DNA of 64,000 nucleotides from assembly GCF_000346465.2 (NCBI RefSeq), contig NC_034012.1, forward strand, positions 17,786,496 to 17,850,495, in the 5' to 3' direction. A model generated the notes under the pieces. That model searched no databases. It saw only the letters and a program-made list of their open reading frames with translations, and had not been told where the DNA came from. The DNA is from Prunus persica (taxonomy: Eukaryota > Streptophyta > Magnoliopsida > Rosales > Rosaceae). The translations under genes were made by a program, and so were the position numbers. Positions 263 to 61,976 of this stretch are shown piece by piece; the first letter of the stretch is position 1, and every line of letters begins with the position of its first letter.

Positions 263-2821
263 CTATGTTGCATGGACACGGATACGGGGACAAGGGAACG
301 CGACGCAGGGACACGATGACACGGAAAATCTCAAAAAATTAAGACACGGGTCCGTAGGACACGGCAATTAAAATAATAATTTATTCTCAATACTTCAATG
401 TCACATAATTTCATAAAACAAAACAAATCACTCATGTTCATCATCCATACATAATAATTAATAGACCACAAAATAAAACATAAATGATATAACTCTCAAT
501 CTTCTTCAAGCATCTATGTCTTCATTGTTGTTGTTATTATTTGTTGTGTTTCTCTTAAAAAAAAATAGAAGAAAGAATTGTCACCTCACCACCAAATCCA
601 ACTCTTCTAATGCTGTGGAGGGAGATAAGAATAGAAAATAGAGAACATAAATTGACAGGACCCGCCCCGGAATTTCCAGGAAACCGGAGTGGACCCCGTC
701 TTTTTGCTGACATCACCTCGATGCCGGGCCCACTTACTAAAAACCGAGACTCTCAACCAAAATTTTGACAGAGTCTCCCCTGTAAATTGAACAAACCCAA
801 CAAAATTCAACCTGCATAAAATACAAAATAATCCCAACCAGCAGCATGCTTTAAAGCGAATAAACAATTTACAACAAAATGGCATCCGGCTTCACAAATC
901 AAACCCTAACAGGGGCGATAATAGAGCATATCTAAGGAATTCAATTCCAACAAAACAGAGTCCAAAAGGAATAACATGAAGAAAGAGTCCTACGAAGGCT
1001 CAAGGCTCGGAAGTACACGATCCGGCTCTGTTGCGGAGCTCAGTCAACTACTGGCTGGGGGGGCGCAAAACAAAAAATTGTGAGTGGACAAAAAATAATT
1101 TCAGTTCAGTGTAAACCAACGTAATATAACCCCACCGTTTAGAAAACCATGCAAGAAATCCCATGCATCTCAAAACCATCATACTCAAGTATATATATAA
1201 AAATATATATCAAAACAAATCAATACCAGATGCCAAGTCCGAAATCCATAAAGAATACTTTACAAACTCACATCCAAACTTATAAGTCCCAAAAACTAAA
1301 CTCTCAAAAGCGTACCCATTGGCACGACCAGCAAGGAAGTATCCTCATCGAGAAACAAGAATGAATGAATAGTTATATATATATATAAATATATAATATA
1401 AGAGATATATATAATATAATATAAATATGACCATCACCTAGATGTACCGGGAAAACAATCCAACCGGGGGATTGTTTGACTAGTCACCCTGGCAGAGTCC
1501 TCATGAAGAGTCCTCAATTCACCATGTGACTAGGGAACGAGCCGTCCAACTGGGGGACCAACTCTCAGCCAGCACGTACAGCCGATACCCTCAAAACTGG
1601 TACGTCTGTGACCAGTCCTACGCTCACAGACTACCCAACCAAGGGTCTACAGCAACATCCCCGTCAAGGATGCCCCGGGTTCCGACAATTCCAAGTATCT
1701 CAAGTTTCCGTATCCAAGTTCCAAATCCGGGGAGGTACATAAGGTAGTGCTTATAGCACTCCAAACTGACATTCTATACCCATCACTTTCCATAATCTCA
1801 TCTCAACAACCCAAGTACCTCACACATAGCCAAATATATATATAGAAATTCTCAAAATCCATATATTCATACTCAAGATACTCAAATATGTCAAAACCCA
1901 AAATATATTTCCAATGCCTCATAAAAATATCACTTCCAACAATTGAATGAATAATATATCCAAAATATCATTTAAAACATCATGCATAATATTTCCCATC
2001 ATAAAACCATGCATAAGATTTGAAAACAAAGTCCACTCACAATTTTCTGTTTTGTGCCCCCTCCCAGCCAGTAGTTGACTGAGCTCCGCAGCAGAGCCGG
2101 ATCGTGTGCTTCCGAGCCTTGAGCCTTCGTAGGACTCTTTCTTCATGTTATTCCCTTTGGACTCTGTTTTGTTGGAATTGAATTCCTTAGATATGCTCTG
2201 TTATCGCCCTTGTTAGGGTTTGATTTGTGAGGCCGGAGGCCATTTTGTTGTAAACTGTTTATTCGCTTTAAAGCATGCTGCTGGTTGGGATTATTTTGTA
2301 TTTTATGCAGGTTGAATTTTGTTGGGTTTGTTCAATTTACATGGGAGTCTCTGCCAAAATTTTGGTTGAGAGTCTCGGTTTTTAGTAAGTGGGCCCGACA
2401 TCGGGGTGATGTCGTTCCGATTTTCTGGAAATTCCGGAGCGGGTCCTGTCATAAATAAATGCATTTGAAGGGGAGGAGAAGAGTTGTGATGGAGGAAATG
2501 AACTTTGGCAGCAGAAAAAGTGAGATTTAGGTTTAAAAAAGTCTTTTTCCACTTTTAGCTCCTATTTTTAAAACAATTTCAAATCAGTCCACCAAAGTTT
2601 CAAAAATCACGTTTAGACCCTAGATTTTATTTTAAAATTTTCAAACTGGTCCCTGTCGTGTCTTGACCGTGTCGGAGCTGTGTCTTGACTGTGTTGGAGC
2701 CGTGTCTTGACCATGTCCCAACCATTGACCATGTCCAATGCGTGTCGAGGGCATGTCAGAGCCGTGTCGGCGTGTCGGCGTGTCCGACACTCTAGCAGTT
2801 TGAAGTGTCCGTACAACATAG
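263..2821. mobile_element. hAT-like non-autonomous DNA transposon
   Basis: The left end reads CTATGTTGCATGGACAC and the right end is its near-perfect inverse (GTGTCCGTACAACATAG). The element is flanked by 8-bp direct repeats with one mismatch, GTTATAGT (255-262) and GTTAAAGT (2822-2829). An 8-bp duplication fits the hAT superfamily. Both subterminal zones (270-360 and 2640-2800) are rich in GTGTC/GACAC motifs, which look like transposase-binding repeats. No transposase is encoded. Most of the length is a younger foldback LTR derivative nested at 653-2451. A Mutator-like origin (9-bp duplications) is the main alternative. Confidence 0.6.
653..2451. mobile_element. Foldback LTR derivative with two U5-type ends
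   Basis: This 1.8-kb insertion is bounded by perfect 5-bp duplications, TAAAT at 648-652 and 2452-2456. It starts TGACAGGACC and ends GGTCCTGTCA. The outer 653-1089 and 2031-2451 are inverted copies of each other. Both correspond to the 3' end of the long LTR seen at 29245-31921 and, reversed, at 58961-61976. The middle (1090-2030) is colinear with the LTR interior at about 59397-60453. The LTR's own 5' half is absent and appears replaced by an inverted second copy of the 3' end. The arm boundary coincides with an inverted 12-mer (TTGTGAGTGGAC / GTCCACTCACAA). Confidence 0.75.
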
Positions 2822-4252: not shown

Positions 4253-4917
4253 TGTTTGTGCAAATAATCTCGCAGGAGAATATTCGCTTCTAGATCCTTC
4301 AACCTTCCATCTTCCTTCTCTCTCTTTCTCGGTTCTTGTAAAAAAGATTGGAGTAAATAGACCACACCCGGGAGGTGTTGGCCAAAGGCCCTCCGATGCC
4401 TAAGTTAGTTCGAGCGTTTATAGGAAAACAATAGCTAAGCAAAGGGTACGGAGTTGTATGTAGGGTGTAAACCGGGTGGCCGGAGCCGTGTGTGGTGGCC
4501 GGAGCCATATGGAGAAAATATGGAGAGTGGAAAGGGAGAGAGAGCTTCGGGTATTTTTCTCGGGCATTAGGAGTAGATTTTCTGAAGTACCTTGAATGAT
4601 GAATGAGGTCGTCTATTTATAGGAGCCTCAGGGCTAGGGTTTCATAGGGATCGAGTCGGCTTTGATAATATCCGAATTAAATATATTATCTCTTAAGAAG
4701 ATAATATCTGAATTAAATGATATTATCTTCTCTTTATTAGGATAATATCTTAATTAATGATATTATCTCTTTAAATAAAGATAATATCATATTAATTAAG
4801 ATATTTATCCCAATTAATTAATTAGCCAGATAAACTGGTTTAATTAATTAATTTAAGAGATAATCTTCTTTTCCACGTGGCGTGCCTTGATTGGAGACAA
4901 AAATATATGCTCCCACA
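4253..4917 (-). repeat. Element A 3' LTR (left copy)
   Basis: 665 bp, same length and ends as the right copy. It contains a conserved block at 4364-4405, CCACACCCGGGAGGTGTTGG followed by CCAAAGGCCCTCCGATGCCTAAG, which is also present in inverse orientation in the LTRs of element B. An AT-rich tract with repeated GATAATATC words lies at 4660-4800. Confidence 0.9.
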
Positions 4918-5129
4918 AATGCCCCCAGCTTCTGCATGGCGCTTGTGTGGCATGTAGGAGATGAAATTATTTTTTTCAGGTTCTCCAACTGTGTCTGGGC
5001 TTTATTATGTGAGTTAGACTCCTTCGCAGATCGGATTCCCAATTGGTGCAGGCTTCTGACTGTTGTTGGAGTTGGATTCCCAGTAAGAATGAGCTTGCGA
5101 TTCCTTCTTGATCCGGGTTGTCCAACTTG

Positions 5130-5137
5130 TATAAATA
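5130..5137 (+). promoter_or_regulatory. TATA box for antisense ORF of element A
   Basis: TATAAATA lies upstream of a pyrimidine-rich leader (5140-5180). A plausible 5' intron follows: donor GTAAGT at 5256, acceptor TTTTTGCAG ending at 5788. Element B has a TATA box (26968-26975, minus) and a leader intron at the equivalent place. The conservation suggests a real internal promoter that drives transcription antisense to gag-pol. Confidence 0.5.
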
Positions 5138-5259
5138 CAGGTTTTCTCTTCACTCTTTCTCACATCGCAAACTTAACTTCTCTACCTTCTGGCTTGAGAA
5201 AAATTTTGGAGAATTTGTACTGCTTGTTGAGGAGAGGAGTTGCCGTGCATCCCAAGTAA

Positions 5260-5788
5260 GTCGAGCCCGTAAAAATATATATGTACGTATATATATATTT
5301 TTTATTTTTGGCAGCAAGGAGATGCTCCAGCATGAGTTGCAATTCGTGAGCAATAGTTGACAAATAGCTGTGGAATTTGTGCTGGAATCGAATGGAGCAT
5401 GAGGCGCATGCTGGTCTTGGAGCTACCTGGCCTGGGCTGGAGCAGATGCGCGCTGGGCCTGAAGCAAGAGCATGGAAGAGCCAAGCTCAAAGCAGAAGGA
5501 GGCGCTGGGCTTCGGAGTTGAGGCAGAAAAGGCGCTGGGCCTTGCGCGCGAAGGGCTTCCGTTGGGCAAGCAGGGTCCTCGTGCTGGGCCGTCGAGCTCA
5601 GGTTTGGGCCGAATGTGCGCTGGCGAGATGGGCTCAAGCTGGGGGTACGGTGGGCTTCTCGTGTTGGGCTGCTCGCGTTGGGCCTTTACAATTTTTTTTT
5701 TTATGCTGCCTTCTTCTTTTTTTTCTGCTGCTGCCTTTCTCTTTTTTTTTTTCTTTGGATTTTAACTTGTAGAATTTTCTTTTTGCAG
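5260..5788 (+). other. Leader intron and GC-rich GCTGGGC tract, element A
   Basis: This region is rich in GCTGGGC/GGGCC words (5390-5680), followed by a T-rich run with a classical 3' splice site just before the antisense ORF. Open frames here are by-products of the base composition. Element B carries a comparable GC-rich tract at about 26330-26680. Confidence 0.45.
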
Positions 5789-5805
5789 CTATCCATTGAC
5801 CAACC

Positions 5806-8129
5806 ATGTCTTCCAGAGACGGTAGCAAGGCTCCAAGCTCTCAGGTGCCTTTGTATTTGTGGGGAGGCTCCGTAGTGCCTAGCAAGAAGTTCGTGGCCAA
5901 TTTGCACCGCGTCACGACCGACGCTCAGTTCCAAAAATGGCGGGCTGCTTTCGCTTCTGCCATTCCAGATGACGTGTAGGTCAAGCTATTGAGGTCTCGG
6001 ACTGATAACGATTCTTTCGAGGATGCGAATGATCCTGGTGCTAGGATCATTACCTTCCGTCCTTTTTATTTTTCCCTGGGCTTCAAATTCCCGCTGTCGA
6101 AGCTCTTCAAGGAGGTGTTCTGGGCCATGGGGTGTGCTCCGAGCCAGAGTACTCCCAACGTTTACCGGGCGATCATGTGTTTTGAGAATCTGAGTCGTTT
6201 CTTTACGCTGAAGTTGTCGATGTGAGAGTTCTTTTATTTTTTTGAAGTGAGGCACTTCGAGCAGTATGCACAAGTTTACTTCTACAGGTCCAGGCTGTTC
6301 GACGGTCTTAGTCAAGGAGATCACGCTTGGCATGACGACGTGTTGGAAGTCAGCGGACGGTGGGAGGGCGACGTTGGTGACGACCCCCTTGTTCCTATCA
6401 CTTATTGCTATGGTGTGTCTTTTTGTGATTTATGATATGTTCCCTTTTTATTTGAGTTCCTTTAAGTGTGGCTGACTAACTTCTGTCTTCTGCTTGTAGT
6501 GAGTGACATCAGTAAACAATTGGAGCTTGGGCCTGACATGGCTAAGGTCCGTCTTGCTTTGAAATCCCCCGAAAGTTTCGTGAGTGGCGCTGGCTGTTGA
6601 GCGAGTATCGGGAGGAAGACGGTGGTCTGCCCCCTGCCGAGGATGTCGAGAGATGGAAGCAGAATGGTCCGGACCCTGATGATCTATCTGCTGAACAGGA
6701 TGAGTGCTTTGCTGAACTCCCACCAAAAATGAAGGCCAATGTCAAGTCTTCAAGAACTCCAGCTACTTCTTTACGGGCGAGGAATGTGTCTCCATTAAGG
6801 AAGAAGCCAAGGCTCCCTTCTGCTGAGAAAACCCAAGTAGGAGCTATTCCCACGTCATCTGCCAGAGTCAAACATCTTGTTGGTGCAAATAGCAAGAAGG
6901 TTGGTGGTATGCGCAACATTAGGGATGTTCCCCTTAAGCCTCTTGCTGATGAGTTTGGAGATCGTGATCTGCTCTGTGAAGTAGTTCGTGCACGGTCCAG
7001 CTCACCCGTTGAGAAGCCAAGAGATGTTGATTTTCCTTTTCGAAGTTCGGGTCGTTTGCACCAGTCGAAGAGTGGAGGTCGATGTGCGAGGTCCGCTCAT
7101 CCATCCAACCATCATGATCCAACTGTTGGGTCACAAGCGGTCAAGCGTGGAGTTGATTCATCGTCGTCAATTCCTTTGGAAGTAAGGTTGGCAGAGGCTA
7201 GAAAAGCAAGAGAGTCATCTGCTCGGGAAAAAGGTTCTTCTGCAACATCAACGACTAATCCAAAGGTGGACAAGCCTAGCCCTACAGGGGATGCGGGCGT
7301 GCCTAATCTGCTCAAGACGCACTTTCTATCAAGTCCATCTGCTTGCGCTGAGCTAGTTGATCAAGTCCGTCAGGCTGGAGATCTTGGTACTTTTTCAAGT
7401 CTTTCCTTGGAAAAACAAAGGGAAGCAATATTTCATCTGCTTTAAAAAGGAGTGGTTTTTGCTGCGAAGACCATTCGGAACTCGTCGTCTGCTGTTGCCC
7501 CCTCTTCTGCTCAGCTTAGTGAGTTGGAGAAGAAGAATGCTGAGCTGGCTAGCAAGCTTTCTGCCGAGCAGATTCGTTACAAGAAGAAGACGTCTGATTT
7601 GTGGGCGATGATATCTGAGCTGAAGAGTTCCCTTACTAAGAAAGATTCCGAGCTCAGCTCTTCTGCTGTTGACTTGGCAAGTCGAAAAGATGCTTATTTC
7701 CGCCTTAAGCGCAAGAATGCCGATATCTCTCATAGTTATGACAAGCTTTTGGCTAAATTTCATGCCTATCATAAGTCTGCTGAAGAATTCAAGTCCAAAG
7801 CTGTCATGGATGCGTACAAGTTGGGCTACTTGGACTACACAATTGGATATGATCCCTTTTATGCCATTGGAGATGAAGACATCGGGATGCTCTATCCTGA
7901 CTTGCCCCCTATGCAAAGTGAGGAGGCTAATGCTGCGAGCACCGAATGAGTTGAAGAGCAGGTGGCTGAAGAGGCAGTAGCTGAAGAGGATGGAGCAGAG
8001 GATGATGCAGCTGATGAGGTGGTGGCAGACGTCATAGATCAGGCATGTGGAGCTACTGAGAGCGTGACTGATCAGGTGGACGCTGAAGAGGCTGCAGATC
8101 AGGGGTCTCTTGCTGGCGTTTCGGAGTAG
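5806..8129 (+). pseudogene. Antisense ORF of element A (putative gypsy type transposon family)
   Basis: The ATG at 5806 opens a frame beginning MSSRDGSKAPSS. The N-terminal half (5990-6412) matches the plant 'putative gypsy type transposon' domain (Pfam Transposase_28). The diagnostic stretch is FPLSKLFKEVFWAMGCAPSQ. An intron (GT at 6413, AG at 6498-6499) is followed by a basic, serine-rich middle, a coiled coil rich in K/E/L at 7480-7800, and an acidic E/D/A/V tail ending at TAG 8127-8129. Stops at 5977-5979 and about 6223, and frameshifts near 6590 and 7445, disable it. The protein's role is unknown. Tat-lineage elements of other plants carry an extra ORF in this position and orientation. 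Confidence 0.7.
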
Positions 8130-8374
8130 ACGAAGACTCCTTTAATTTTTTTCAGCTTTTGTAGTCTGCTCTTTATTTAGAATAATTTGTCCTGTTTTGA
8201 CCATCTTCTTTTTGTTTGAACTTGGCCGATTGGTTACTTTGCTATGGAAATTTCAGTCTTTATTTTTTCAACTTCAATATTGTCTTGTGAACTGCTTGAG
8301 TAACCGGTTAGTGTCTTGCTGTGTATTTCCCTTGGGATTTTGGCAAAAGCCAAGGTCCCCCTTGATGGACTCCG

Positions 8375-8960
8375 GTCGTTGCCCTGCGTCTCCCTTAGGA
8401 CGCTGCTTATGGACAACTCTTATGACTATCCTGCCCCCCCTAGGAAAAGGTTAGGAACCTGGATACCTCCCTTAAGAAATTCCTGACGCACCCTGCAACC
8501 CCCTTAGGATGCTGCTTTGTGGGCTGCATCTCCCGAATGACACTTTTGGACGTCGCCCTGCGTCTCCCTTAGGACGCTTTTTATGGACAACTTATTTGAC
8601 TATCCTGCCTCCTTTAGGAAATGGATAGGAACCTGGATATTTCCCGCAGGAAGCATGGTGACCCCCTTTTAAGAAACTCCTGGCGCACCCTGCGTCTCTC
8701 TTAGGACGCTATTTTGCAGGCTGCGTCTCCCGAAGGACGCTTTTGGTCGTCGCCCTGCGTCTCCCTTATGACGCTTTTTATGGGCAATTGTTTGGCTATC
8801 CTGCCCCCCTTAGAAAACGGATAGGAACCTGGATACTTCCCTTATGAAATTCCTGGCGCACCCTACGTCTCCCTTAGGACGCTTCTTTGCGGGCTGCGTC
8901 TCCCGAAAGACGCTTTTGGTCGTCGTCCTGCGTCTCCCGAAGAACGCTACTTATGGGCAA
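8375..8960. repeat. Tandem repeats in element A 3' region
   Basis: A unit of about 174 bp containing CCTGCGTCTCCCTTAGGACGC recurs with CCTG starts near 8383, 8557, 8754 and 8927. Spacings are 174, about 197 and 173 bp; the middle unit carries an extra 23 bp. Within units, the CTGCGTCTCCC(G/T) word itself recurs. Related repeats occupy the same position in element B. Amplified 3' repeats are known for the Retand group. Confidence 0.8.
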
Positions 8961-9067
8961 CTGTCTTTTGTTGTGGCACATTCTGGAATTTAAAGTAGTT
9001 GCTTCTCTTTTTCAGAAATGTGCAGTACTCAGTCGTCTGCTGGGGACTGAGCAGGTAGGAGGAAGCG

Positions 9068-12000
9068 TCATGGATAGTATCTTTGGAGGTGGTAGGCGTT
9101 CCATTGTCGTGGAATCTCCTTCCCTTCCATGGTGTTAAGCGTATAGCTTTCTCTGCCCCCGGACCGGCTGATTATGTAAGGGTCTTCCCAATTGGGTTTC
9201 ATCTTTTGATATCCTTGTCTTTGTGCAGTGATAAAGGCCTTTCTTAGCACAAGGTCGCTTGGTTGAAACTGTCTGATCTTGGCTCTTTTGTCGTAGTAAG
9301 ACTTCAACCGCTATTGATAGGAGGCGACTCGGACAATGGCCTTCTCGCGCTCGCCTTCAAGTAAGTCAAAGTTGAGTCTCATCTGCTCGGAGTTCTGCTC
9401 AATACTGCCCACTTCGATGCCTACAGAGAGGACAGTGATGTGAGGAGGAATGATCGTTTCAGTTCCATAGGCGAGGGAAAACGGGGTTTTGCCAGTTGAT
9501 CTTCGCATAGTGGTAGGCGAGGGAAAACGGGATTTTGCCAGTTGATCTTCGCATGGTGGTGCGATAAGCCCATAGTACGCCAGGGAGCTCATCTACCCAT
9601 TTTCCTTCGGCGCCTTCTAATCTTTTCTTTAGACAGTCCAATATTATTTTATTGGATGCCTCGGCCTGGCCGTTGCCTTGAGGATATCTCGGGGTAGATA
9701 GATGCTGCTTGATGCCATACTTTTTGAAGAAGGCAGTGATTTGCTTGCCAATGAATTGTGAGCCATTGTCGGTAACTAGTGATTATGGGCAGCCAAACCG
9801 GCAGATAATGTTTCTTCAGATAAATCGTTCCACATCATCTTCTTTAGTAGAGGATAGAGCTTCGGCCTCAATCTATTTAGTAAAGTAATCAGTGGCGACG
9901 ATCATCATTTCTTTCTTGGCCGGTGCCGTTGGCATGGGGCCTACTAAGTCGATGGCCCATTGCATGAAAGGCCACGGACTATTCTGCGGATGGTAGATTT
10001 CGACATGCAGATTAGGAACTGGTTTGTACCGTTGGCAGCGATCACATCTTTTGACATATTCGGTGGAGTCATGGCGCATTGTAGGCCAGAAATAGCCTAC
10101 GTTTAGAGCCTTCTGGGAGAGTGACCTGGCCCCAGAGTGGTTGCCACACTCACCGTCATGAATTTTGCAGAGGACCTCAAATGTTTGAGGATACTTTATG
10201 CAAGTTAGATGAGGGCCGGAGTATGATCTGCGAATGAGCTTGTCGCCCTGCATGTAATATCTTGCGGCTTTCTGTTGGACCTTCCTAGCTTCGGACTTAT
10301 CCGTTGGCAGATTTCCATTCACTAAGTAGTCGATGATAGGGTCTTACCAGCTGGGGACTTCATCGATCTGCATTGAGTCGATTGGCTCTATTTCTTCGAT
10401 GCTTGGTCGGTCAAGGTGTTTGACGGGGATGGAGCGTCTGAACTGGGTGTCCAACACTGATCCTAGGCTTGCCAACACATCTGCATGAGTGTTCTCTGCC
10501 CGTGGAACTTGTTGGATGGTGAAAGTAGGAAATTCTTTCAAAAGTCCTTGGACTTTGTTGAGGTACTGGATCATTCTTGGATGCTTTGCCATGTACTCGC
10601 CTGAGGCTTGATTCGTGATCAGCTGGGAGTCTGAGTAGATGGCCAATCTCTTGATCGTCAGTTCTTTTGCTAGGCGCAGTCCTGCGAGCAATGCCTCATA
10701 TTATGCCTCATTGTTTGAAGTAGAAAAGCCTAGCGTGATGGCTTGTTCCAACAAGGCTCCGTCTGGGGTGATTATGACGACGCCTGCCCCTAATCCTTTG
10801 TGATTTGATGCTCCGTCTACATGCAATTGTCACATGTCGTTAGGTAGGTTTGAATCGGTAGGGGAGGTGTCGTCTGCTTTTTCCTTGCTTTTCGTGACCA
10901 TCTTCTCTTCTTCGCCTGTCGGAGTAAACTCTACAACAAAATCTGCTAAAGCTTGGGCTTTTATAGCAGTCTTCGGCCGGTAGAGGAGGTCGTATTGATT
11001 GAGTTCGATAGCCCATTTCATAAGTCGTTGAGAAGCATCGGGGCTGTGGAGAATCGATCTCAAAGGAAATTCTGTCATGACAATTATCCGGTGTGCTTGG
11101 TAGTAGGGCCTTAGTTTTCTCGCGAAAACTACAAGCGAAAAAATGAGCTTCTCCATTTTCGGATAGCAGGTCTCTGCATCGAGGAGAGCTTTTGAAGTGT
11201 AGAATACCAGATGTTGTGCCCCCAGCTCTTCTCGGATGAGAGCTGAGCTGACAGTTGAGTCGGACACCGCCATATAGATGTACAAGTCTTCGCCTGGTAT
11301 CGGTTTTAAGAGTAAGGGAGGTGAAGTGAGGTAGGTTTTCAAGTTTTGAAAAGCTACTTCGCACTCGTCATCCCACTTGTCCCTGTATCCTTTCTTCAAG
11401 GCTTTGAAAAATGGCCTGCACTTGTCGGTAGATCTTGAGAGGAATCGGTTGAGAGCTGCCGCCCTACCCGTTAGACTTTGTATCTCCTTTGTTGTGGCAG
11501 GTGACTTCATGTTAAGTATAGCCTTGATTTGATTTGGATGTGCCTCAATTCCTTTTTAGGTGACTAAGTATCCCAGGAATCGGCTGGACGAGACTCCAAA
11601 CGTGCATTTGCTCGGGTTCAACTTCATGTCGTACTTTCGGAGTAGGCTGAATGCCTCGGCAAGGTTCTTGATGTGGTCTGCTCGCTCGGGAGCTTTGACT
11701 AGCATGTCGTCTAAGTAGACCTCCATAGTCTTGCCTATTTGCTCCTTGAAAATTTTGTTCACCAGCCTTTGGTAGGTTGCTCCAGCGTTCTTCAGCCCAA
11801 AGGGCATGACTTTGTAGCACTATGTACCTCTTTCGATGATGAAAGAGGTTTTAGCCTTGTCATCTTCATGCATCATGATTTGGTTGTAGCTGGAGTAGGC
11901 GTCCATGAAGCTTAGCAGTTGGTTGCCGGAAGTTGAATCGACGAGCTGATTAATTCTAGGCAGTGAAAAGTTGTCTTTAGGGCATGCCTTGTTGAGGTCG

Positions 12001-12995
12001 GTGTAGTCGACGCACACTCTCCACAGACCTTTATCTTTCTTTGTCACTAGAACAACGTTCGCCAGCCATTCTGTGTAAGTGACTTCTTCAATGAAACCAG
12101 CAGCTAGAAGCTTATTGATCACGGCTTCAATGATGGCAACCCGGTCGAGGGCGAAGTTGCGTCTCTTCTGCGCTACAGGTTTGATAGCTGGGTTGACGTG
12201 TAGGCGATGACAGATGATCTGGGGATCGATGCCAGGCATGTCAGATGGCGACCATGCAAATACGTCTTTGTTGTTCCGGAGGAAGGCTGCAAGCTCTATC
12301 TTTTCCTCATGGCTTAAGCGCGAGCCGATCCGCGCTTTTCTCTCTGGTTTGTTAGGATCATGGGGTACTAGCTCAACGTCCTCTTCGGGCTTCCATCCTT
12401 CTTTAGGAGGGACCTCCGGACGGATTCCCTCGACTTGGTCCTGATTCTTTGATTGCTATTGGGGAGTAGCTATTCCCTTTCCTTTCTGGTTTGCTCGGCC
12501 GTCAGGAACGGGATCTGCTTTCTCCTCTGCTTGTTCTACTCTCTTTATATCTGCCTGATTCACAGGGAGGAACTGTGTTTGTTTGCCTTTCTTCAGCCCT
12601 TGAGCTGAGCGTTTTCTTGCCATTGGCTGATCGCTATTGATCTGGCCGATACCGCCCCCAGGGATTGGGTAGCGAATCTTCTGATGTGTGGCAGAGGTAA
12701 TGGCGTTGATCTGGCTGATCCATGGTCTGCCTAGAATGCCATTGTAGGGTGAGATTTCATCAATGACCATGAACGTTTGCTAGTTAATTACAGGTGGAGA
12801 GTAGACGTCGAGATCTATCGTGCCCATGGTAACCGTCGTTGCTCCATTGAAACCAGTCAGCGACTTGGCTAATTTATTGATCTTTGCATCTAAGCCCATC
12901 TGTTGGACGACTGCCAATTGTAGGATGTTGGCTGCACTGCCTTCATCTGCATGGATTCGGTCGACCATGGCCTGAGCGATTTGAATGCTGAACAC
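9068..12995 (-). pseudogene. Element A pol: protease, RT, RNase H, second RNase H, integrase
   Basis: Read from 12995 down. A retropepsin region lies at 12995-12456 (DEGSAANI in place of the usual D-S/T-G-S). Reverse transcriptase follows at 12239-11545, with MPFGLKNAGATYQR and the active site YLDDML, then the first RNase H and connection at 11510-10830. A plant-type second RNase H (IYSDSQLIT, HADVLASLG) lies at 10691-10344. Integrase has its H2C2 zinc finger (DRCQRY) at 10322-9990, its core from 9990, and its C-terminal end at 9307-9068. Stops separate the blocks, and a 46-bp tandem duplication at 9471-9562 shifts the integrase frame. The second RNase H places it in the Tat clade. Confidence 0.85.
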
Positions 12996-13236
12996 AAGGG
13001 CGTCGCTGTGCGGTAGATCAAGGCCGATTAAGTCTTTCTTTTAGAAGCCGATCACGGGATCGTCTTCTGCCAGTGAGAGGCTAGTTGAGACTTGGGAGAT
13101 CATAGTAGCCTGTTTGATCTTCCTCTTCTTTTCTTTGTTGGTCAGTCCAGACTCCTCGGAGTCGGCTAGGATTGTTTTAATCCTTATGACCTTCTGGGAT
13201 GGCTCCTTGGCGGTATCGCGGTCTTCAATCTGCTAG

Positions 13237-15440
13237 ATGGCCTGCTTCGCAATGAACTCCGTGCAGCGACCTTCCCTCACGAGTTATTCAAGATGCGCTT
13301 TCCAAGCAAAGCAATTATTCGTATTGTGCCCATGTGTCGCATGGAAGGCACAATATTTTCTGGTATCCCTCTTGTCTGGATCTCTTTTCACGGGTGGCGG
13401 TCTTTTTACCCAAGGTTTGTCCTTCACTTGAGCTAAAATTTGATGTATGGGGATGGAGAACTTGGTGTAGTTCTCTTTCGTCATAGCCTCTCTTTGTGGG
13501 CGTGGCCTGCCTTTGTCTTTGTCCCTGCTGCCAAGCCTGTTGCCTCTTTATTCTGCCCGCTTGGTTGGTCGATCTTCCTGCTCAGTGGACTTCTTCGCGG
13601 CGATTCGATCGTCATCCCAGAGTGCGTAGCGTTCTGCGGTAGCGAAGACCTTTGCCAGAGTCTGGCTGGGAGTGATAGTCAGCTCGCGATATAAGTCATG
13701 TTCTGCTGGAAGACATTTCTTGAATGCAGAGGATGCGATTTGGTCATCGCACCCTACGATGTTGGCCTTTTCTACTTTGAACCTCTTGATGTAATCTCGA
13801 AGGGATTCCTCGGGCTTCTTGCGCAGGTTGAACAGATGGTCAGGGTTCTTCTTGATCGTCCGATAAGAAGTGTATTCTTTAGTGAAGACGTAAGTAAGCT
13901 CCTTGAAGCTGTTGATCGACCCGGATAGCAGGGTATGGAACCAATCTTGAGCTGCTCCTCGCAAAGTCATTGCAAACACCTTGCACATTAGCTCGTCTTC
14001 GGCTTTGTAGAGGATCATAAGGCTCTTGAAATGCTTCAGATGACTTTTGGGGTCGGAATCGCCTTTGAAGCATGTGAAAGAGGGCGTTGAGAATTGTTTC
14101 GGGGGAGCAGCCTGTTCGATTTTAGCGGTGAAAGATGAGGAGTTTGCTCGGTCTACCTCAATGCGTAGTGCATCTTCGAAATTTCCGCCAATCTTTAAGT
14201 CTCGAAGTCGGTTATTCACAAGCTTCTCAACGTCTTTTGCACGCATGGCTAGTCGGTCACGTTGATGACCATCGCGATTTAGACGATGCTGATTGACTTT
14301 CTCATTGGCTTGCGAGGGTCGACCTTCTCGGTTACGCTGTCTAGGCGGCGTGTTGGTGAACTGCACTTCTGAGGGATTTCCAGTAGTTTGGCGATGAGAA
14401 TTGGTTCTTCGAGAGCGAGTAGCGGTGCTCCTTTATTCACAGTCCTCATTGTGATGATTGTCGAGTTGACCTCCCTGGGGGCCTATCCTTTCGTGAATAT
14501 TTCTCTATGAGCGGGCAGCGGAGCGCCTTTCTTCTCGATCCTCGTCCCAATGGCCATCAAGTTGACCTCCCTGGGAGCCTAGCCTTTCATGAATGCCTTC
14601 TTGCGGGCCCAGGCGAGCGTGGATGTCAGGTCTTGGGCCTAGCCTATCGCGTACGTTGGTCCTTAAATTCAATCTAGACTGGAAACTTCGTCTACTCTGA
14701 GTGTGGCTTGCGGATGCTTGCGACATGTCGGCGAACTGATCGCGTTGTTACGCATTTCCTTGTCCGCTTACTCCTACTCGACCTGCTTGGTTCCCGCCGA
14801 ACTGCCTATCGGCGCGTTCGTTTATCCTTCTCTCTTCGCCCTGTTGTCCAAGGCCAAGGTTTTGAGCCAAGTTTATTTGGTTGAGGAGCTGCCTCATCAA
14901 ATTGTTTTGGTCGTCCATTCTCTAAGTTAGCTGGTCAACACTCAGATTAAGGTCTACTTGACTTCGTAGATCGGGATGAGAGAAATGTATGGAGCCCAAT
15001 TGCACATGGGCTAGGGTTTCATTGGATGTGTAGGCGGGAGCGTGCGTCGAGCGTGGAGGCAATGGAGGGAATGCTTGAAGTTGCTCAAAGATTGGGCCAA
15101 AGTCGGCGGTGGTAGTAAGCCCACCTTGATGTGAGGTTCCACCATGCTCAGCCGCGGTGCTATGAAGGTGGCTACATTCGGCCACGGGGCCTTGAGATGG
15201 TACGACGGCAGCAGAGGCCGGTGCGGTGGTCCTAACTGCGAGTCTGGCGGGTGGCACGGTGGTTCCAGTCACACGGGGCAGCTGCTATGGTGCGACAACA
15301 AGGGTTTGTTGTGGGTTCATGGCGGTGAGAGATGGTTGAGCCACCATGTCGATCGCTGGATCGTGGGAGGAGTAGCTTTGGGCCGTCACGGATTGAGCCA
15401 TAACGGCGGTTTTGCTCCTCGTGCGCTTGCTTCCAACCAT
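13237..15440 (-). pseudogene. Element A gag
   Basis: The start is the ATG at 15440 (MVGSKRTRSK), matching the ATG used by element B. The N-terminal extension carries RLGP(Q/R) repeats at 14500-14680. The core at 14366-13548 is a Retrotrans_gag domain, with GAAQDWFHTL and SFKELTYVFTKEY as landmarks. A Cys/His cluster (CAFHATHGHNTNNCF) near 13310-13370 takes the place of a zinc knuckle. Stops and frameshifts interrupt it between 14366 and 14505 and around 13270. Confidence 0.8.
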
Positions 15441-15536
15441 GGTTGTTTGGAAGGCTTCAGTGGATTGGAAAATAGGAAGAACGGATTCCTTGAGCACACG
15501 TTGAGTATAACTCGTGCTCTCAATGAAAGCACCAAA

Positions 15537-16201
15537 TGTTTGTACAAATAATCTCGCGGGAGAATATTCGCTTCTAGATCCTTCAACCTTCGATCTTCCT
15601 TTTCGCTCTTCCTCGATTCCTGTAAAAAGGATTGGAGTAAATGGACCACACCTGGGGGGTGATGGCCAAAGGCCCTCCGATGCCTAAGTTAGTTCGAGCG
15701 TTTATAGGAAAACAATAGCTAAGCAAAGGGTACGGAGTTGTATGTAAGGTGTAAACCGGGTGGCCGAAGCCGTGTGTGGTGGCCGGAGCCGTGTGGAGAA
15801 AATATGGAGAGCGGAGAGGGAGAGAGAGCTTCGGGTATTTTTCTCAGGTATTAGGAGTAGGTTTTCTGAAGTACCTTGAATGATGAATGAGGTCTTCTAT
15901 TTACAGGAGCTTCGGGACTAGGGTTTCGTAGGGATCGAGTCGGCTTTGATAATATCTGAATTAAATATATTATCTCTTAAGAAGATAATATCTGAATTAA
16001 ATGATATTATCTTCTCTTTATTAGGATAATATCTTAATTAATGATATTATCTCTTTAAATAAAGATAATATCATATTAATTAAGATATTTATCCCAATTA
16101 ATTAATTAGCCAGATAAATTGGTTTAATTAATTAATTTAAGAGATAATCTTCTTTTCCACGTGCCGTGCCTTGATTGGAGACAAAAATATATGCTCCTAC
16201 A
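15537..16201 (-). repeat. Element A 5' LTR (right copy)
   Basis: The 665-bp partner of the left LTR. Immediately inside it, on the minus strand, comes TTTGGTGCTTTCATTGAG. Element B has the same sequence after its own 5' LTR, so this is probably the primer-binding site, although I could not match it to a tRNA. Confidence 0.9.
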
Positions 16202-16402: not shown

Positions 16403-17098
16403 TGTGGGAACTTAATTAAATCAAACCCTACGTCAAATAATTCCTTTCATTTGGGGATTATTTGACCTAATTGGGAATTAATCAACCTAATTGGGAGTTA
16501 CTCAATTTAATTAGAAATTACCCAATTAAATTGAACGTTACCTAATTAGGTTGAGAATTGATTTGGTTAATTACCACGATTCCCAATTAAATGAGGAGTT
16601 ACATAATTGCATCAGGATTTGATTTGATACCTACCACAATTAGGGATTTGATTTACCCTAATAAATCAAATCCCTAATTAATTAAATCAATTCCAAAAAG
16701 GGGAGGAATAATTCTCTTCCATCTACGGAATTATTCATCTGAAACTCTAGCCTCCAAGACAACTATAAAAGCATAGACAGACACAAGGGTTGAGGTACGT
16801 CAGAATTACTACTAAAACTCTGCAGAAAATTTCTCTCAAACCCTGGCCACCTCTTTTCTCTCTCTTTTACATAAGACTCCGGCCGCCCGGTTTACACATT
16901 AAACACATTTCGTACCCTATTTTAGCTATCATTTCTCTACGGATCGATTGAACTGACTTAGGCATCTGAGGGCCTTTGGCCCACACCCTCCGGGTGTGGT
17001 CCTCTTATTTGTTTCTATTTTGCAGGGAGAAAGAGGCGGCAAAGAAGAAAGAGGAATCTTTCGAACCGAATATTCTTGTGGGGAAATTTGCTCCCACA
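16403..17098 (+). repeat. Element B 5' LTR
   Basis: 696 bp, paired with 27171-27867. The first half contains many interspersed AATTGGGA / TCCCAATT words in both orientations. A TATA-like CTATAAAAGC sits at 16763. A block at 16950-17010 (ACTTAGGCATCTGAGGGCC then a CACCCTCCGGGTG palindrome) is shared, inverted, with the LTRs of element A. TTGGTGCTTTCATTGAGA follows directly and is probably the primer-binding site. Confidence 0.9.
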
Positions 17099-17195
17099 AA
17101 TTGGTGCTTTCATTGAGATCACGAGTTATACTCAACGCATACTCAAGGAATCCGTTCTCCCTATTTTTCAATCCATCGCAGCCTTTCAAAAAACC

Positions 17196-18770
17196 ATGGT
17201 TGGAAGCAAGAAGACGAGAGGCAAAACCACCGCGATGGCTAGATCAGCAACGGCCCAAAGCCATTCCACCCACGATCCAGCGATCGACATGGTGGCACCA
17301 CCACCTCTCACCATCGTGCCACCTACCGGACCTCCAGCTGAGACCACCGCACCAACCACCGCCGACGAATATGGTGGAACCTCCCATCAAGATGGGCTCG
17401 TTACCACTACTGACTTAGGCCCGGTCTTGGAGCAACTTCAAGCATTCCCTCCATTGCTTCCACGCTCGACGCGCGCTCCCGCATACACCTCCCATGAAAA
17501 CCTAGCCCGTGTGCAGTTGGGCTCCACACACTTCTCTCATCCCGATCCACGAAATCAAGCAAACCTTAATCTGAGAGTTGACCAGCTAGCTCTGAGAATG
17601 GACGACCAAAGCAATCTAATGAGGCAGCTCCTCAATCAAATAAGCTTTGCTCAAAACCTTGGCCTTGGACAACCGGATGAGGAGAGAAGGATGGACGAAC
17701 GCGCCGGTAGACGACTCGACGTCTGCGCCCGCTTGGGCCCTCAAGGAAATGTGCATCAAAGGCTAGGCCCCCAAGGAGGTTAGCTAGACAACCATCGCAA
17801 CAAGGATAGTGAAGAAAGGCGTTCAGCTTTCTACTCACAGAGAAGCGTTCTCAAAAGGCTAGGCCCCCAGGGAGGCCAGTTGAATAACCCTCACAATGAG
17901 GACCATGAGGAAAAATGCTCCGTTACTCACTCTCGAAGAACCGATTCTTGTCGACAAGCTACAGAGAATCTTTCGTAGGCGCAGTCCACCAACACTCCAC
18001 CTAGGCAGCGCAGGCGAGAAGGTCGACCCTCGGAGGACAATGAGGAAGTCAATTAATATCGTGGAGGTCGCCAACATAACCGACTAGCAATGTGTGCAAA
18101 AGACGTTGAGAAGCTCGTGAATGACCGACTTCGAGACTTGAAGACCGGAGGAAACTTCGAGGATTCACTACGTAAGGAGATGAACCAGGTGAACACTACG
18201 CCTTTCACCCTCGATATCGAGCAGGCCGCTCACCCAAAACGATTCTCGACACCCTCGTTCTTACACTTCAAAGGGGATTCCGATCCCGAAAGCCACTTAA
18301 AACACTTCAAAAGTGTTATGATCCTCTACCAGGTTAACGACGCGCTTATGTGCAAGGTATTTGCGATGACCTTGAGAGGAGCAGCCCAAGACTGGTTCCA
18401 CACCCTACCATCCGGGTCGATCAGCAGCTTCAAGGAGCTAGCTTACGTCTTCACCAAAGAATACACATCTTACCGGACAATCAAGAAGAACCCTGACCAC
18501 TTGTACAACCTGCACAAGAAGTCTGACGAATCTCTTCGAGACTACATCAAGAGATTCAAGGCAGAAAAGGCGAACATTGTAGGATGTGACGACCGAATCG
18601 CGTCCTCTGCTTTCAAGAAAGGCCTTCCAACTGAGCACGACTTGTTCTGCGAGTTGACTATCACTCCCAGCCAGACTCTGGCATAGGTCTACGCGACTGC
18701 AGAACGCTACGCGCTCTGGGATGACGATCGAATCGCCTCAAAGAAGTCCACAAAGCAGGAAGATCAGCCA
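17196..18770 (+). pseudogene. Element B gag
   Basis: The ATG at 17196 (MVGSKKTRGK) opens the N-terminal extension, which ends in RLGPQG repeats and a stop near 17781. The gag core resumes at 18090-18686 with the same landmarks as element A (GAAQDWFHTLPSGS, AYVFTKEYTSYRT). A stop falls at 18684-18686. The protein would form the particle that packages element RNA. Confidence 0.8.
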
Positions 18771-18809
18771 ACTAAGCGGGCAGACCAAAGAGGAGACGGA
18801 TTTAACAAC

Positions 18810-21800
18810 ATGAAAAAAGAAAAGCACAGGTCGTACCCACAAGGGGAGGCTACAGCAGGAGAAAACTACACCAAGTTCACCATCCCCATACATCAAATCT
18901 TAGCCCAAGTGAATAACAAACCTTGGGTAAGAAGACCACCACCCTTGAAAGGAGATCCGGACAAGAGGGAAACTAACAAATACTGTGCCTTCCATGGGAC
19001 GTATGAGCGTACTACGAACAACTGCTTTTCTTGGAAAGCGCACCTTGAAGAACTCGTGAAAGAAGGCCACTGCACTGAATTCATTGCGAAGCAGGCTATC
19101 CAACGGATTGAGGATCGAGACACCGCCAAGGAGCCGCCTCAGAAGGTCATAAGGATTAACACAATCCTAGCCGACTCCGAGGAGTTTGGGCTAACCAGCA
19201 AGGAAAAGAAGAGGAAGATCAAACAGGCCATTGTGATCTCCCAAGTCTCGACCGACCTTCCACCAGCAGAAGACGATCCTGTGATCGGCTTCCAAAAGAA
19301 AGATCTGATAGGCCTCGACATGCCACATAACGATGCCCTTGTCGTCAGCATTCAAATTGCTCAGGTCATGGTCGACCGAATCCACGCAGACGATGGCAGC
19401 GCAGCCAATATCCCACAACTAGCGGTCATCCAACAGATGGGCTTGGAGATAAAGATCAACAAATTAGCCAGCTCACTGACTGGCTTTAATGGTGCAACAA
19501 TGGTTACCATAGGCACGATAGACCTCGACGTCTACTCGCCACCTGTAATCAGCTCACAAACATTCATGGTCATTAATGAGGTCTCACCCTACAATGGCAT
19601 CCTGGGTAGACCATGGATTGGCAAGATCAACACCATCACCTCCGCCACACATCAGAAAATTCGGTATCCAATCCCTGGGGGCGGTGTCGGCCAAATCAAC
19701 AGCGATCAAGCAATGGCGAGGAAATGCTCCGCCCAAGGGCTGAAGAAAGGCAAACAAACGCAGTTCCTCCCCATGAGCCAAGCAGATCTGGAGGAGGTTG
19801 ATCAACCGAATCTTGCTATCTTATAGCAATCAAAGCGTCAGGACCAAGCAGAGAAATCCGCCCAGAGGTCTTTCCTGAAGAAGGATGGAAACTCGAGGAG
19901 GACGTCGAGTTAATACCCTTGGATCCTGACCAACCAGATAGGAAAGCACGGATCGGCTCGCGCTTAAGCCCAGAAGATAAGGTGGAGCTTACCACCTTCC
20001 TCCAGAGCAACAAAGACATGTTCGCATGGTTGCCGTCATACATGTCTGGCATCGACCTGAACATCATCTGTCACCGACTCCACGTCAACCTCGCATGCAA
20101 GCTAGTGGCGCAGAAGAGACGCAACTTCGCACCCTAGCGAGTCGCTATCATCGAAGCTGAGATTGACAAACTCCTAGCTGCCGGCTTCATCGAAGAGGTC
20201 TCCTACTCAGAGTGGCTTGTCAACGTTGTTCTGGTGGCAAAACAAGAAAAGGGCAAATGGAGAGTTTGCGTCGATTACATAGACCTCAACAAAGCATACC
20301 CTAAAGACAACTTCCCATTGCCGAGAATCGACTAACTCATGGATTCCACTTTTGGCAATCAGTTGCTCAGCTTCATGGATGCCTACTCCGACTATAACCA
20401 AATCCTGATGCACGAGGATGACAAGGCGAAAACTTCTTTCATCATTGAGAGAGGGACTTACTGCTATAAGGTCGTGCCCTTTGGGCTGAAGAACGCCGGA
20501 GCAACCTATCAAAGGCTCGTGAATAAAATCTTCAAGGAACAAATCGGCAAAACTATGGAGGTCTACGTGGATGACATGCTGGTCAAAGCCCCAAAACGTG
20601 CAGATAACATCGGAAATCTTGCCGAGTCATTCAGCTTGCTCCGTCAATATCGCATGAAGTTGAATCCAAGTAAATGCACGTTTGGTGTATCCTCCGGTCG
20701 ATTCTTGGGATACCTAGTCACGCAACGAGGTATCGAGACACACCCATATCAAATCAAAGCCATTCTCTAGATGAAGTCACCCTCCACGGTGAAAGAGATA
20801 CAAAGTCTGACAGGCAGAGCAGCGGCCCTCAACCGATTCCTCTCGAGATAAACCGACAAGTGCAGACCATTCTTCAAAGCTTTGAAGAAAGGACAAAGAG
20901 ACAAATGGGATGAGGAGCGCGAAGTAGCTTTCCAGAATCTGAAGACTTACCTCACCTCACCTCCCCTGCTCTCAAAGCCAGTCTCTGGCGAGGACTTGTT
21001 CGTATACCTGGCAGTGTCCAACTCAGCTGTCAGTTCAACTCTCATCCGAGAAGAGCTGGGGGCCTAACATCCGATATTTTACACTTCAAAAGCTCTCCTC
21101 GATGCAGAGACTCGCTACCCGAAATTGGAGAAACTTATTTTGGCTCTTGTAGTTTCTGCGAGAAAGCTGCGACCCTACTACCAAGCTCATCGAGTCATCG
21201 TCATGACCGACTTTCCTTTGAGATCAATCCTCCACAGCCTTGATGCTTCTCAGCGACTCATGAAGTGGGCTATAGAGCTAAGCCAATATGACTTCCTCTA
21301 CCGGCCAAAAACTGTAAAAAAGCCCAGGCTTTAGCAGACTTCGTCGCAAAATTCACCCTATCAGCCGAAAAAGAGAAGTTGGTCAACCAAAAGAAAGAAA
21401 GTTCAAAAGCAGACGGGACCTCCGCAGAACCTAGCCAACCCAGAGACGTGTGGCAGTTGGGCGTAGACGGAGTGTCGAACCAAAAAGGAGCTGGAGCAAG
21501 AGTCGTCATCACCACCTCAGATGGAACCCTGTTGGAGCAAGCTATTATGCTTGGCTTCCCGGCCTTGAACAACGAGGCAGAATACGAGGCATTACTCGCC
21601 GGCCTATGCTTGCCAAAAGAGCTCGCAATCAAAAAGCTAGCCATCTACTCAGACTCACAATTGATTACGAATAAAGCCTCAGGTGAATACATGGCGAAGC
21701 ACCCAAGGATGATCATTTACCTTGACAAAGTCCAAGAGCTGTTGAAGGCATTTCCCACCTTCACCATCCAACAAGTGCCCTGGGTAGAGAATGCACATGC

Positions 21801-23003: not shown

Positions 23004-23029
23004 GGAGAGCCCTCAACAGTTGCCTAAAG

Positions 23030-23740: not shown

Positions 23741-23982
23741 TCTAAATGAGGATGTGCAATCAAAACACAGGTTGGTTACTCAAGCAGTTCACAAGTCAAA
23801 TATGCAAATTGAAGTTGGAAAATGTAACTGAAATTTCCATAAGAAATAGACCAATCGGTCAAGTTCAACAAAAAGAAGATGGTCAAATAAGACCAGTTAT
23901 TCTAAACAAAAAAATAAACTACAAAAGCTGAAAAGAAATAAAAAAGAGTCTTCGTATACTTTGAGATGCCAGCAGAAGACCT

Positions 23983-58960: not shown

Positions 58961-61900
58961 TGACAAGACCCGCCCCGGAATTTCCCGAAAACTGGAGTGA
59001 ATCCTGTCTTTGTTCTGACATCACCCAGATGCCGGGCCCACTTACTAAAAACCGAGACTCTCTACCAAAATTTTGGCAAAGTCCTCCCTGTGAATTGAAC
59101 AAACCCAACAAAATTCAACCTGCATAAAAATACAAAATAATCCAACCAGCAGCATGCTTTGAAGCGAATAAACAGTTTACAACAAAATGGCCTCCGGCCT
59201 CACAAATCAAATCCTAACAGGGGCGATAACAGAGCATGACTAAGAACTTCAATTTCAACAAAACAGAGTTCAAAGGGAATAACATGAAGAAAGAATCCTA
59301 CGAAGGCTCAAGACTCGGAAGCGCACGATCCGGCTCTGCTGCGGAGCTCAATCAACTACTTGCTGGGGGGTGCAAAACAGAACATTGTGAGCGGACAAAA
59401 ATAAATTCAGTTCAATGTAAACCAACGTAATATAAACCCACCGTTTAGAAAACCATGCAAGAATCCCATGCATCTCAAAACCATCATACTCAGGTATATA
59501 TATAAATATATATATATATCAAAACAAATCGATACCAGATGCCAAGTCCGAAATCCATAAAGAACACTATACAAACTCACATCCAAAACTTATAAATCCC
59601 ACAACTAAACTCTCGAAAGCATACCCATTGGCACGACCGGCAAAGAAGTATCCTCACCGAAAAACAAGAATGAATGAATTATATATATAAATATATAATA
59701 TAAGAGATATATATATATAGTATAAATATGACCATCACCTAGTTGTACTGGGGAAACAATCCAACCGGGGGATTGTTTGACTAGTCACCCTGGCAGAGTC
59801 CTCATGAAGAGTCCTCAATCCACCATGTGACTAGGGAACGAGCCTTCCAACTGGGGGACCAACTCTCAGCCAGCACGTACCGTCGATAACCTCAAAATCC
59901 GTACGTTTGTGATCAGTCTTACGCGCGCAGACTACCCAAGCAAGGGTCTACAGCAACATCCCGTCAAGGATGCCCCGGGTTCCGACCATTCCAAGTATCT
60001 CAAGTATCCGTATCCAAGTTCCAAATCCGGGAAGGTACATAGGGTAGTGCTTATAGCACTCCAAACTGACATTCTATACTCACCACTTTCCACAATCTCA
60101 TTTCAACAACCCAAATACCTCACACATAGCCAAATATATATAGAAATCCTCAAAATCCATATATTCATACTCAAGATACTCAAATATGTCAAAACCCAAA
60201 ATATATTTTCAATGCCTCATAAAAATATCACTTTCAACAATTTCATAAATAATATATATCCAAAATACCATTTAGAACATCATGCATAACATTTCCCAAA
60301 ATCTATATAAAATATACTTTCAATACCCAACTATGCCAAAGCGCTATACAAACATCAAGTTCAACTCATGAATATAATATATTCAATAAATCATTAAAAA
60401 CATTATGCATAAATCTTTCATCAATAAAACCATGCATAAGATTTGAAAACAAAATCCACTCACAAGTAGTCCCACGCTATTTGACCCTAAGAGGGTCCCG
60501 CCTGCTGCATATGCGTGGTCGGAGTACCTATTTCAGAATACGTATACGAGATTAATACGAAGCATTTCAAACGAGTACTTTGAATTAAATATCCAAATTT
60601 CCCAGGTGTCTAGTAAGTGTACTAGGATCGAGACGTTCTAAGGTCCAACTACTCAATTTGGACGATGGAACAACTTCGAGAGACACTTGGTCAACTGACG
60701 GTCAAACTTCCCAATTCGGGTCAACCTGGCCCACGGGACCCACGACCTCCGTTTTACAATCCGAAAGTTCCTAAAGGTTTCACAACGTCTAAGATACCCA
60801 TATCGCAAGTTTGGTCCGAAACGGAGGGTTAGATCGCTTACGATCGCACGACCGGTCGGTTATTATAAAACGCAAACTTTAAGTTATTGAATCGGAACAT
60901 CCAGGACTCCGATTCACAATCCACGAAGTCCTACACGATCTTAGGAATACGTAGAACAACATATTTTAATTGGAAAACGATCCAACGATCAGAACCTATC
61001 GAACCCGGATAACGCACAATATGCGAAAATCCGTTCGATAGTCAAACGATGTCCGAATTGAGATCCGCAAAATCCTACTCACTCGTGACAACCAGGAGAT
61101 CGCATTGGGATCATAATGCCCCTCTGCTATAGTGCCCACGCGCCACCACAAGCGCCGGCAGTGCGCGGGTGTCCAAAGCGATAAAGCTTCGTCGGAAAAT
61201 CTCCAAATTACAAGCCACCCTCCCGGCTACAGGTTCTACTCGACGAGTGGAACACTTTATTCAACTATATCCAAGTCCAATTCGGACGACAAGTGGTCGG
61301 AATCGGCGTCAGAAACTCACGGTTTAACTCGGAACTTCACGGCCTCGATCCGGTGACCACCGTCGCCATTGTTTTCGCACAACCTAGGAAATAGCTAGAA
61401 GGGGAGGAGAGCTACCTGTTTCAAGTGACGGCGCAGCTCACGATGGCCGGAAACGTCGCCGGTGACGTCGGCAGTTTTGGCTAGTTTTTTCACGTCGTTG
61501 CCACCGCCGTTTGCTGGGGTTTCGATCGGAGAAAAGGGATGGGCTGGGTAGAGGAGAAAGAGAGGAAGCTTTTGCAAGAAACGGCACCTGAAATGGAGGT
61601 CGGACGGCGAAGTTCTCGCCGTCTGAAATTCCGGTGAAAAATCGAATCAGGGAGGGAGGGTTCAGCCGCCGGGGGGGGGGGGGGGGGGGGGGGGGAAAGA
61701 GAGAGAGAGGGAGAAGTCAGATATTTTTAAACCCAAAATTTGAAATATTTTTGTCATTGTCGATGTTTTGATCGTAATTTCTTCGTTACAACTCCGAATT
61801 AAGTCTACCACGTGTCTAAGAATTTGTCTTAGTACCACCTACCCAAAAATACCAGTCACTGCTCCAAACACTTTTCGGACAAGAAAATGACCAATTTACC

Positions 61901-61976
61901 CCTACCCTAAGGGTAAATTTATAAATTCACTTAAATAATTTAAAATAGGAATTAAATTTGGAGTCGGGGTGTTACA
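58961..61976 (-). mobile_element. Solo LTR, 3.0 kb, same superfamily as 29245-31921
   Basis: Lies in minus orientation: on the plus strand it runs TGACAAGACCC to GGGGTGTTACA. It is flanked by perfect 5-bp duplications CCTCT (58956-58960 and 61977-61981). Both ends match the LTR at 29245 (TGTAAC(A/G)(C/A)CCC and GG(G/C)(T/A)CxTGTCA). No internal region is present. It contains a run of 25 G at 61671-61695 next to a GA repeat. Confidence 0.9.
61671..61695. repeat. Poly-G run (25 G)
   Basis: Twenty-five consecutive G, followed by AAAGAGAGAGAGAGG. Runs of this length are unstable and hard to sequence, so the true length is uncertain. Confidence 0.85.

Follow-up and report, generated by a model that had tools for sequence, protein, structure and literature searches.

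How can a derivative of an LTR retrotransposon end on both sides in the same LTR 3′ end, and lie in the chromosome between two copies of a perfect target duplication? This question is raised by a unit of 1799 bp at positions 653-2451 of the window, by which we mean the whole stretch of 64,000 nucleotides of DNA analysed here, beginning at base 17,786,496 of contig C4. A reading made from the letters of the DNA (hereafter the sequence-only reading) had described both termini of the unit as inverted copies of one LTR 3′ end, and the sequence together with a self-comparison bears out this description and its coordinates: the terminus TGACAGGACCCGC... is present at either end, in inverted orientation, so that each end of the unit is the same LTR 3′ (U5) end.

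The unit, its relatives and its target site

The features of the unit, and of an ordinary relative that lies in the same window, are as follows.

648..652, no strand: left copy of the target duplication TAAAT, from the sequence and nine paralogous empty sites
653..1089, plus strand: left arm, an LTR 3′ (U5) end, with an inverted match to 2031-2451 and a direct match to 58961-59396
1078..1089, plus strand: inner 12-mer TTGTGAGTGGAC, the putative annealing site of the fold-back
1090..2030, plus strand: interior, the same LTR continuing past the arm and not duplicated, from blastn and alignment to 58961-61976
2031..2042, plus strand: outer 12-mer GTCCACTCACAA, the last LTR bases before the turn-back and the putative 3′ end that primed
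2031..2451, minus strand: right arm, the U5 end a second time, inverted and lacking 18 nt, from the inverted match to the left arm
2452..2456, no strand: right copy of the target duplication TAAAT, from the sequence and paralogous empty sites
58961..61976, minus strand: ordinary relative, a complete solo LTR of about 3 kb, with its U3 start at 61976, its U5 end at 58961 and the duplication CCTCT

The left arm is 437 bp long and the right arm 421 bp, and in a self-comparison the two are 95.6% identical over 383 columns, with 33 of 36 positions alike at the tips; both outer boundaries of the unit fall exactly on the LTR terminus. The right arm is 16 nt the shorter, mainly because of an 18-nt deletion near 2414-2415, and the junction pattern of this deletion has no other match in the 227.5-Mb genome at up to three mismatches. 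At the same tolerance, the terminal 24-mer of the left arm has 403 matches in the genome (212 + 191). Read from the primer side, the left arm runs as minus-strand cDNA would. Together with the interior it aligns directly to the ordinary relative at 91.4% over 1354 columns, and the next 135 columns, at 82.2%, reach base 60465 of the relative (both by blastn); the left end of the relative is U5, and its right end is the U3 start (TGTAACACCC on the minus strand). By blastn and alignment, the interior of the unit lacks, at about 1998-2003, roughly 120 nt that are present in the relative. This deletion sits only about 30 nt ahead of the turn-back point, and we considered that it might have been inherited from a deleted parent. 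One other copy, L123 (C4:25480527), is deleted in the same region with different breakpoints, which gives no link between the two. A further and more distant copy of the same LTR type lies in the window at 29960-31921, in opposite orientation.

Among the matches listed, at least seven pairs of U5 ends in the same orientation are spaced 7.4-7.6 kb apart. The sequence between one such set of ends, at C1:29300744 and 29308108 (L124), matches RVT_1 and RT_RNaseH in a domain search, and from these domains, rather than from a tree, we read the LTR family as Ty3/Gypsy and not Copia. The unit has LTR sequence in common with the two-LTR copies that bear RT and RNaseH, which belong to a more distant subfamily. 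It displays what is expected of a Ty3/Gypsy-type LTR derivative, namely LTR sequence linked to RT/RNase H and a short target duplication of fixed length.

The duplication itself, which the sequence-only reading had called perfect, is TAAAT at 648-652 and again at 2452-2456. From the local composition, and with the empty sites disregarded, the chance of a 5-bp match between the flanks is about 0.002, and the paralogous empty sites remove most of the remaining doubt over a chance match. Such sites are available because the flanks (250-652 and 2452-2830) are part of a repeat that has other copies in the genome. For the empty-site test, the flanks were joined with one TAAAT and aligned to nine fetched loci: seven of the nine carry the target, with neither gain nor loss of bases where the flanks meet, and the other two (L076 and L078) have no alignable sequence there. 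A motif search for the target across the fetched loci, allowing up to four substitutions, found nine distinct paralogous target sites (L012, L013, L014, L015, L016, L019, L020, L021 and L023), and each of these empty sites has one target of the AACATAAATAAATGCATTTGA type, in some cases with single substitutions. The search also returned the window itself and two weak matches (L026 and L106) that we judged unrelated, and in the stretches examined of the remaining partial copies of the repeat the target was not found at up to four substitutions. Since the paralogous copies hold a single target, it follows that insertion duplicated the five bases and brought in the 1799-bp unit in one piece. The flanking repeat (about 250-652 and 2457-2830) has inverted ends of the form TATGTTG...CAACATA, tandem GTGTCTTGACCGTGTCGGAGC-like units and many partial copies, and may be a DNA transposon. 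Its copy in the window lacks about 60 nt relative to the empty-site paralogs, from about 2471, some 20 nt to the right of the insertion, and this loss looks like a separate deletion.

The two arms were aligned with 45 U5 ends of the family, namely those of 44 of the 46 fetched copies and that of the window relative; the other two copies (L092 and L096) were excluded because the arm is incomplete in them. A tree of 37 rows (the two arms, 30 nearer copies and 5 that are more distant) places the arms as sisters, with support of 96/97. They also have eight rare sites in common, each found in at most 2 of the 29 other rows of the close subfamily, which is the highest count among the 465 pairs that 31 rows allow, the runner-up pair having five. 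From this count L095 was excluded, since it groups with the other subfamily in the tree, and this left the 29 close rows. The arms differ by 21 substitutions over 419 sites (18 transitions and 3 transversions), plus indels. Twelve of the 21 are private to one arm, six on the left and six on the right, and the remaining nine are all transitions, at sites that vary within the family. The K2P distance between the arms is 0.052, which at substitution rates of 7e-9 to 1.3e-8 per site per year gives a divergence of about 2 to 4 million years. Neither the tree nor the common rare sites support an origin of the arms from two differently templated sources, for which the nine differences at family-variable sites leave room, and the arms could have become more alike by conversion between them at a later time.

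The turn-back point and its inverted 12-mer

An alignment with 58961-61976, proposed in the sequence-only reading as the way to place the switch point to the base, does place it: ordinary LTR homology ends at 2042, the last base of the outer 12-mer (2031-2042), and past this base the unit continues as inverted arm and no longer as ordinary LTR. That reading had also noticed an inverted 12-mer at the fold-back junction, with an imperfect counterpart in the intact relative, and both observations hold. In the unit the pair is perfect, with TTGTGAGTGGAC at 1078-1089 facing GTCCACTCACAA at 2031-2042 (426-437 and 1379-1390 nt into the unit), and the pairing across the turn-back ends after the twelfth base. 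In the relative the pair is matched at 10 of 12 positions, at 59385-59396 and 60454-60465, which are LTR positions 425-436 and 1494-1505.

Ordinary copies of the LTR carry the same pair. Both sites are readable in seven close copies, of which two match at 12/12 (L008 and L087), four at 11/12 (L003, L004, L006 and L089) and the window relative at 10/12; L007 could be read at neither site and L002 at the left site only, and L095 is unaligned at the right site. In the more distant subfamily GTCCACTCACAA is kept in 15/15 readable copies, and a partner with one mismatch, ATGTGAGTGGAC, is found in 14/15 readable copies, among which L080 and L081 come from the two ends of one element. Among inverted matches with at least three G/C, the 12-mer pair is the longest in L008 (2844 nt examined) and in L087 (1651 nt examined); pure-TA inverted matches in L008 are longer, up to 16 nt. 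Elsewhere other inverted matches reach 10 nt, both in L004, where the 12-mer pair is reduced to 9 exact nt, and in the window relative with its imperfect pair. The claim that this is the best snap-back site of the LTR thus rests on the two copies with a perfect pair and on the G/C filter. An inverted 12-mer with at least five G/C appeared in 2 of 400 order-1 Markov sequences modelled on 1505 nt of the relative, and the probability of a 12-base match at a given pair of places is about 5e-8. Judged from these comparisons of sequence, the junction is at a strong snap-back site that ordinary copies carry, and not at a random place. Self-priming of a minus strand calls for a self-complementary stretch in the parent strand, and ordinary copies have one, which is perfect in two of the seven.

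The two sites differ in how well they are conserved. Over the 1505 nt and 22 rows compared, from which L007, L002, L095 and the unit itself were left out, mean column conservation is 0.73. The left (inner) site, at 0.955, falls on the 91st percentile of 12-nt windows, which is moderate, and the right (outer) site, at 0.989, stands out on the 99th percentile. The inverted 12-mer is retained in both LTR subfamilies, and it may have a role in the RNA or in the promoter.

Origin of the two U5 ends

The unit is probably an integrated aberrant cDNA of Ty3/Gypsy type, in which fold-back or cross-priming took place at the 12-mer before integration and integrase then joined two U5 ends. The sequence-only reading had suggested a template switch or fold-back at this microhomology followed by insertion by integrase, and four lines of evidence argue for such an event before integration: the clean empty sites, the exact termini, the sister relationship of the arms and the pair of 12-mers that already exists in ordinary copies. 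The direction of synthesis is also suitable. In L081, beside a U5 end of the two-LTR element whose interior matches the RT and RNase H domains, the sense strand reads TGTCA GCT TGGTATCAGAGC, which puts TGGTATCAGAGC 3 nt beyond the U5 end; we take this to be the usual plant primer site for initiator Met tRNA, and it comes from a related element of the more distant subfamily. With a primer site beside U5, minus-strand synthesis would begin at the U5 end and run along the plus strand of the window, and the unit reads in this direction up to base 2042.

Under this scheme, minus-strand cDNA begun at the tRNA primer next to U5 would have reached about 1.4-1.5 kb into the LTR, where its 3′ end, GTCCACTCACAA, would have left the template and paired with the earlier-copied TTGTGAGTGGAC of its own strand or of a sister strand copied from the second packaged RNA. 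Extension of the paired 3′ end back to the U5 terminus would have produced a molecule with U5 at both ends. A second round of priming would have turned its interior into duplex or, had two strands been involved, replication would have resolved the interior once the molecule was integrated. The two U5 ends would have been trimmed and joined by integrase in the normal way, and repair of the gaps would have left TAAAT on each side. Since a hairpin of one strand has a single duplex end, either a second priming would have copied the loop or two strands would have primed each other; mutual priming of strands from two packaged RNAs would give two U5 ends directly, with a bubble in the middle for replication to resolve. 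The routes at the level of cDNA (self-priming, cross-priming, or two cDNAs jointly inserted and then joined) cannot be told apart from a single copy, which fits them all. One copy is known, which gives the steps no replicate; the structure looks like a single natural accident. A broader idea, possible and decidedly tentative, is that the inverted 12-mer, kept in two subfamilies, gathers nascent minus strands of the two packaged RNAs, and that reciprocal priming yields a U5-U5 duplex with a bubble of two like strands in its middle; integrase would insert the duplex and replication would resolve the bubble. If this were true, it would be a U3-free route to integration, without the second strand transfer or polypurine-tract priming.

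Some of the rival explanations bear on the rest of the genome. The junction pattern of 653-2451 occurs once in the 227.5 Mb and 192 contigs of the assembly at up to three mismatches, and the sequence-only reading had proposed a search for further copies with the same junction and other target duplications, of which this search found none. Among the 215 distinct U5 ends listed, an incomplete set beside the 403 matches of the terminal 24-mer, three convergent pairs lie within 20 kb, including the unit itself. The other two, C2:13576206/13580143 and C8:14518603/14526810, have flanking 5-mers that differ (TTGGA and GAGAG in the C8 pair), and no other convergent pair among the ends listed has flanking 5-mers in common. 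In the C2 pair one end belongs to a complete LTR, and the two ends are 78-80% alike over blocks. Such pairs show that U5 ends can come to face each other in other places, and one might imagine two independent LTR insertions in opposite orientation at one place, followed by a deletion between them. We consider this highly improbable, and the sequence-only reading had named it as an outcome that would speak against its own account: the C2 and C8 pairs lack common flanking 5-mers, and the C2 ends are much less alike, one of them a complete LTR, whereas the unit has a common duplication, clean empty sites and sister arms. A self-propagating foldback family, or an artefact of assembly, is scarcely credible. 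Long inverted ends do recall foldback elements, and palindromes might be prone to misassembly, but a foldback or MITE family is rejected by a junction pattern that is unique in the genome, and an artefact sits badly with arms that differ at 21 sites plus indels, with zero N in the window and with a clean target duplication.

Two further explanations account for more of the structure. In one, which we hold to be unlikely, two cDNAs of one particle were co-inserted, each contributing one U5 end to one of the two target strands, and host microhomology repair joined their broken inner ends at the 12-mer. Retroviral integrases concertedly join two separate U5-end DNAs in vitro, and the sequenced products of Rev-A integrase have a 5-bp duplication (PMC3790719). 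A microhomology of 12 bp is in keeping with end joining, sister arms are in keeping with RNAs packaged together, and DNA molecules joined after a common integration would leave an identical sequence. This course requires two coincident events, however, and the join falls on the longest inverted match of L008 and L087 with at least three G/C, as fold-back predicts and as end joining does not need. The other explanation, which is very improbable, is a change after insertion, by which an ordinary solo LTR exchanged its U3 half for its own U5 arm, copied in inverted orientation, through gene conversion or template switching in replication. The left arm and interior are indeed ordinary LTR in the correct order, the 12-mer could have been used as the switch point, and sister arms fit here too. 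But gene conversion, the alternative that the sequence-only reading had offered, would have had to stop precisely at the terminus of the LTR, next to an intact TAAAT on the right, and to leave the left flank wholly uncopied in inverted form. As far as the repeat, the right flank is a direct match to the empty sites. An aberrant cDNA with two U5 ends, formed before integration, remains the reading that we prefer.

Comparison with known elements and reactions

The unit resembles solo LTRs of the family in its sequence, in the kind of target duplication and in the absence of a core. A solo LTR, left by recombination after insertion, runs from a U3 start (TGTAACAC...) to a U5 end, whereas both termini of the unit are U5 and there is no U3 terminus. 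TRIM and LARD elements have two direct LTRs with a primer site and a polypurine tract between them; here the ends are in inverted orientation, and the alignment shows the interior to be LTR. Some complexes of cereals (Triticeae) described by Sabot and Schulman in 2007 were argued to result from template switching before integration on the grounds of a shared 5-bp duplication and like outer ends (PMC1950507). In both cases a single integration is deduced from the 5-bp duplication and the like ends, the switching is abnormal, and integrase accepts an aberrant cDNA. The Triticeae complexes have direct LTRs, two cores and a third, internal LTR (PMC1950507), whereas the unit would derive from fold-back on the same or a sister strand, has an interior of LTR and no core, and ends in U5 on both sides.

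A parallel to the proposed fold-back is found in HIV-1, whose minus-strand strong-stop DNA self-primes at the TAR hairpin (PMC4668388). There too, a minus strand still in synthesis folds back where it is self-complementary and serves as primer for its own copying. The product in HIV-1 is described as heterogeneous aberrant DNA (PMC4668388), whereas the likely product here belongs to a plant element and was integrated; its stem measures 12 nt and its loop about 0.9 kb. For the insertion step, concerted integration in vitro is alike in its two U5 ends and, with Rev-A integrase, in its 5-bp duplication; it was carried out with purified animal-virus integrase and oligonucleotides (PMC3790719), in contrast to a natural insertion of a plant element of Ty3/Gypsy type.

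In the literature searched, which was judged mostly by titles and abstracts and in which subscription journals are poorly covered, we found no report of a natural U5-U5 insertion, and this is a weak negative. The locus is a record from nature, and paralogous empty sites back it. It points to the integrase of an LTR element completing, in a plant cell, a two-ended insertion with two U5 ends, and hence to a machinery of insertion that may tolerate a pair of identical ends. Fold-back cDNA is known mainly as a by-product of test-tube reactions, and the record points to such a cDNA having reached a chromosome. It also supplies a signature that can be searched for: convergent U5 ends that have a target duplication in common, with the turn-back located where the LTR has an inverted repeat. 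Programs that look for LTRs as direct repeats would, we expect, miss such units, and those that look for inverted repeats could class them as DNA transposons.

A much larger inverted pair lies elsewhere in the window, at 4360-15777 and 16877-27772, and its members are 76-87% alike in blocks. By eye, their predicted open frames resemble retrotransposon gag and pol, and they are probably two related elements inserted in opposite orientation.
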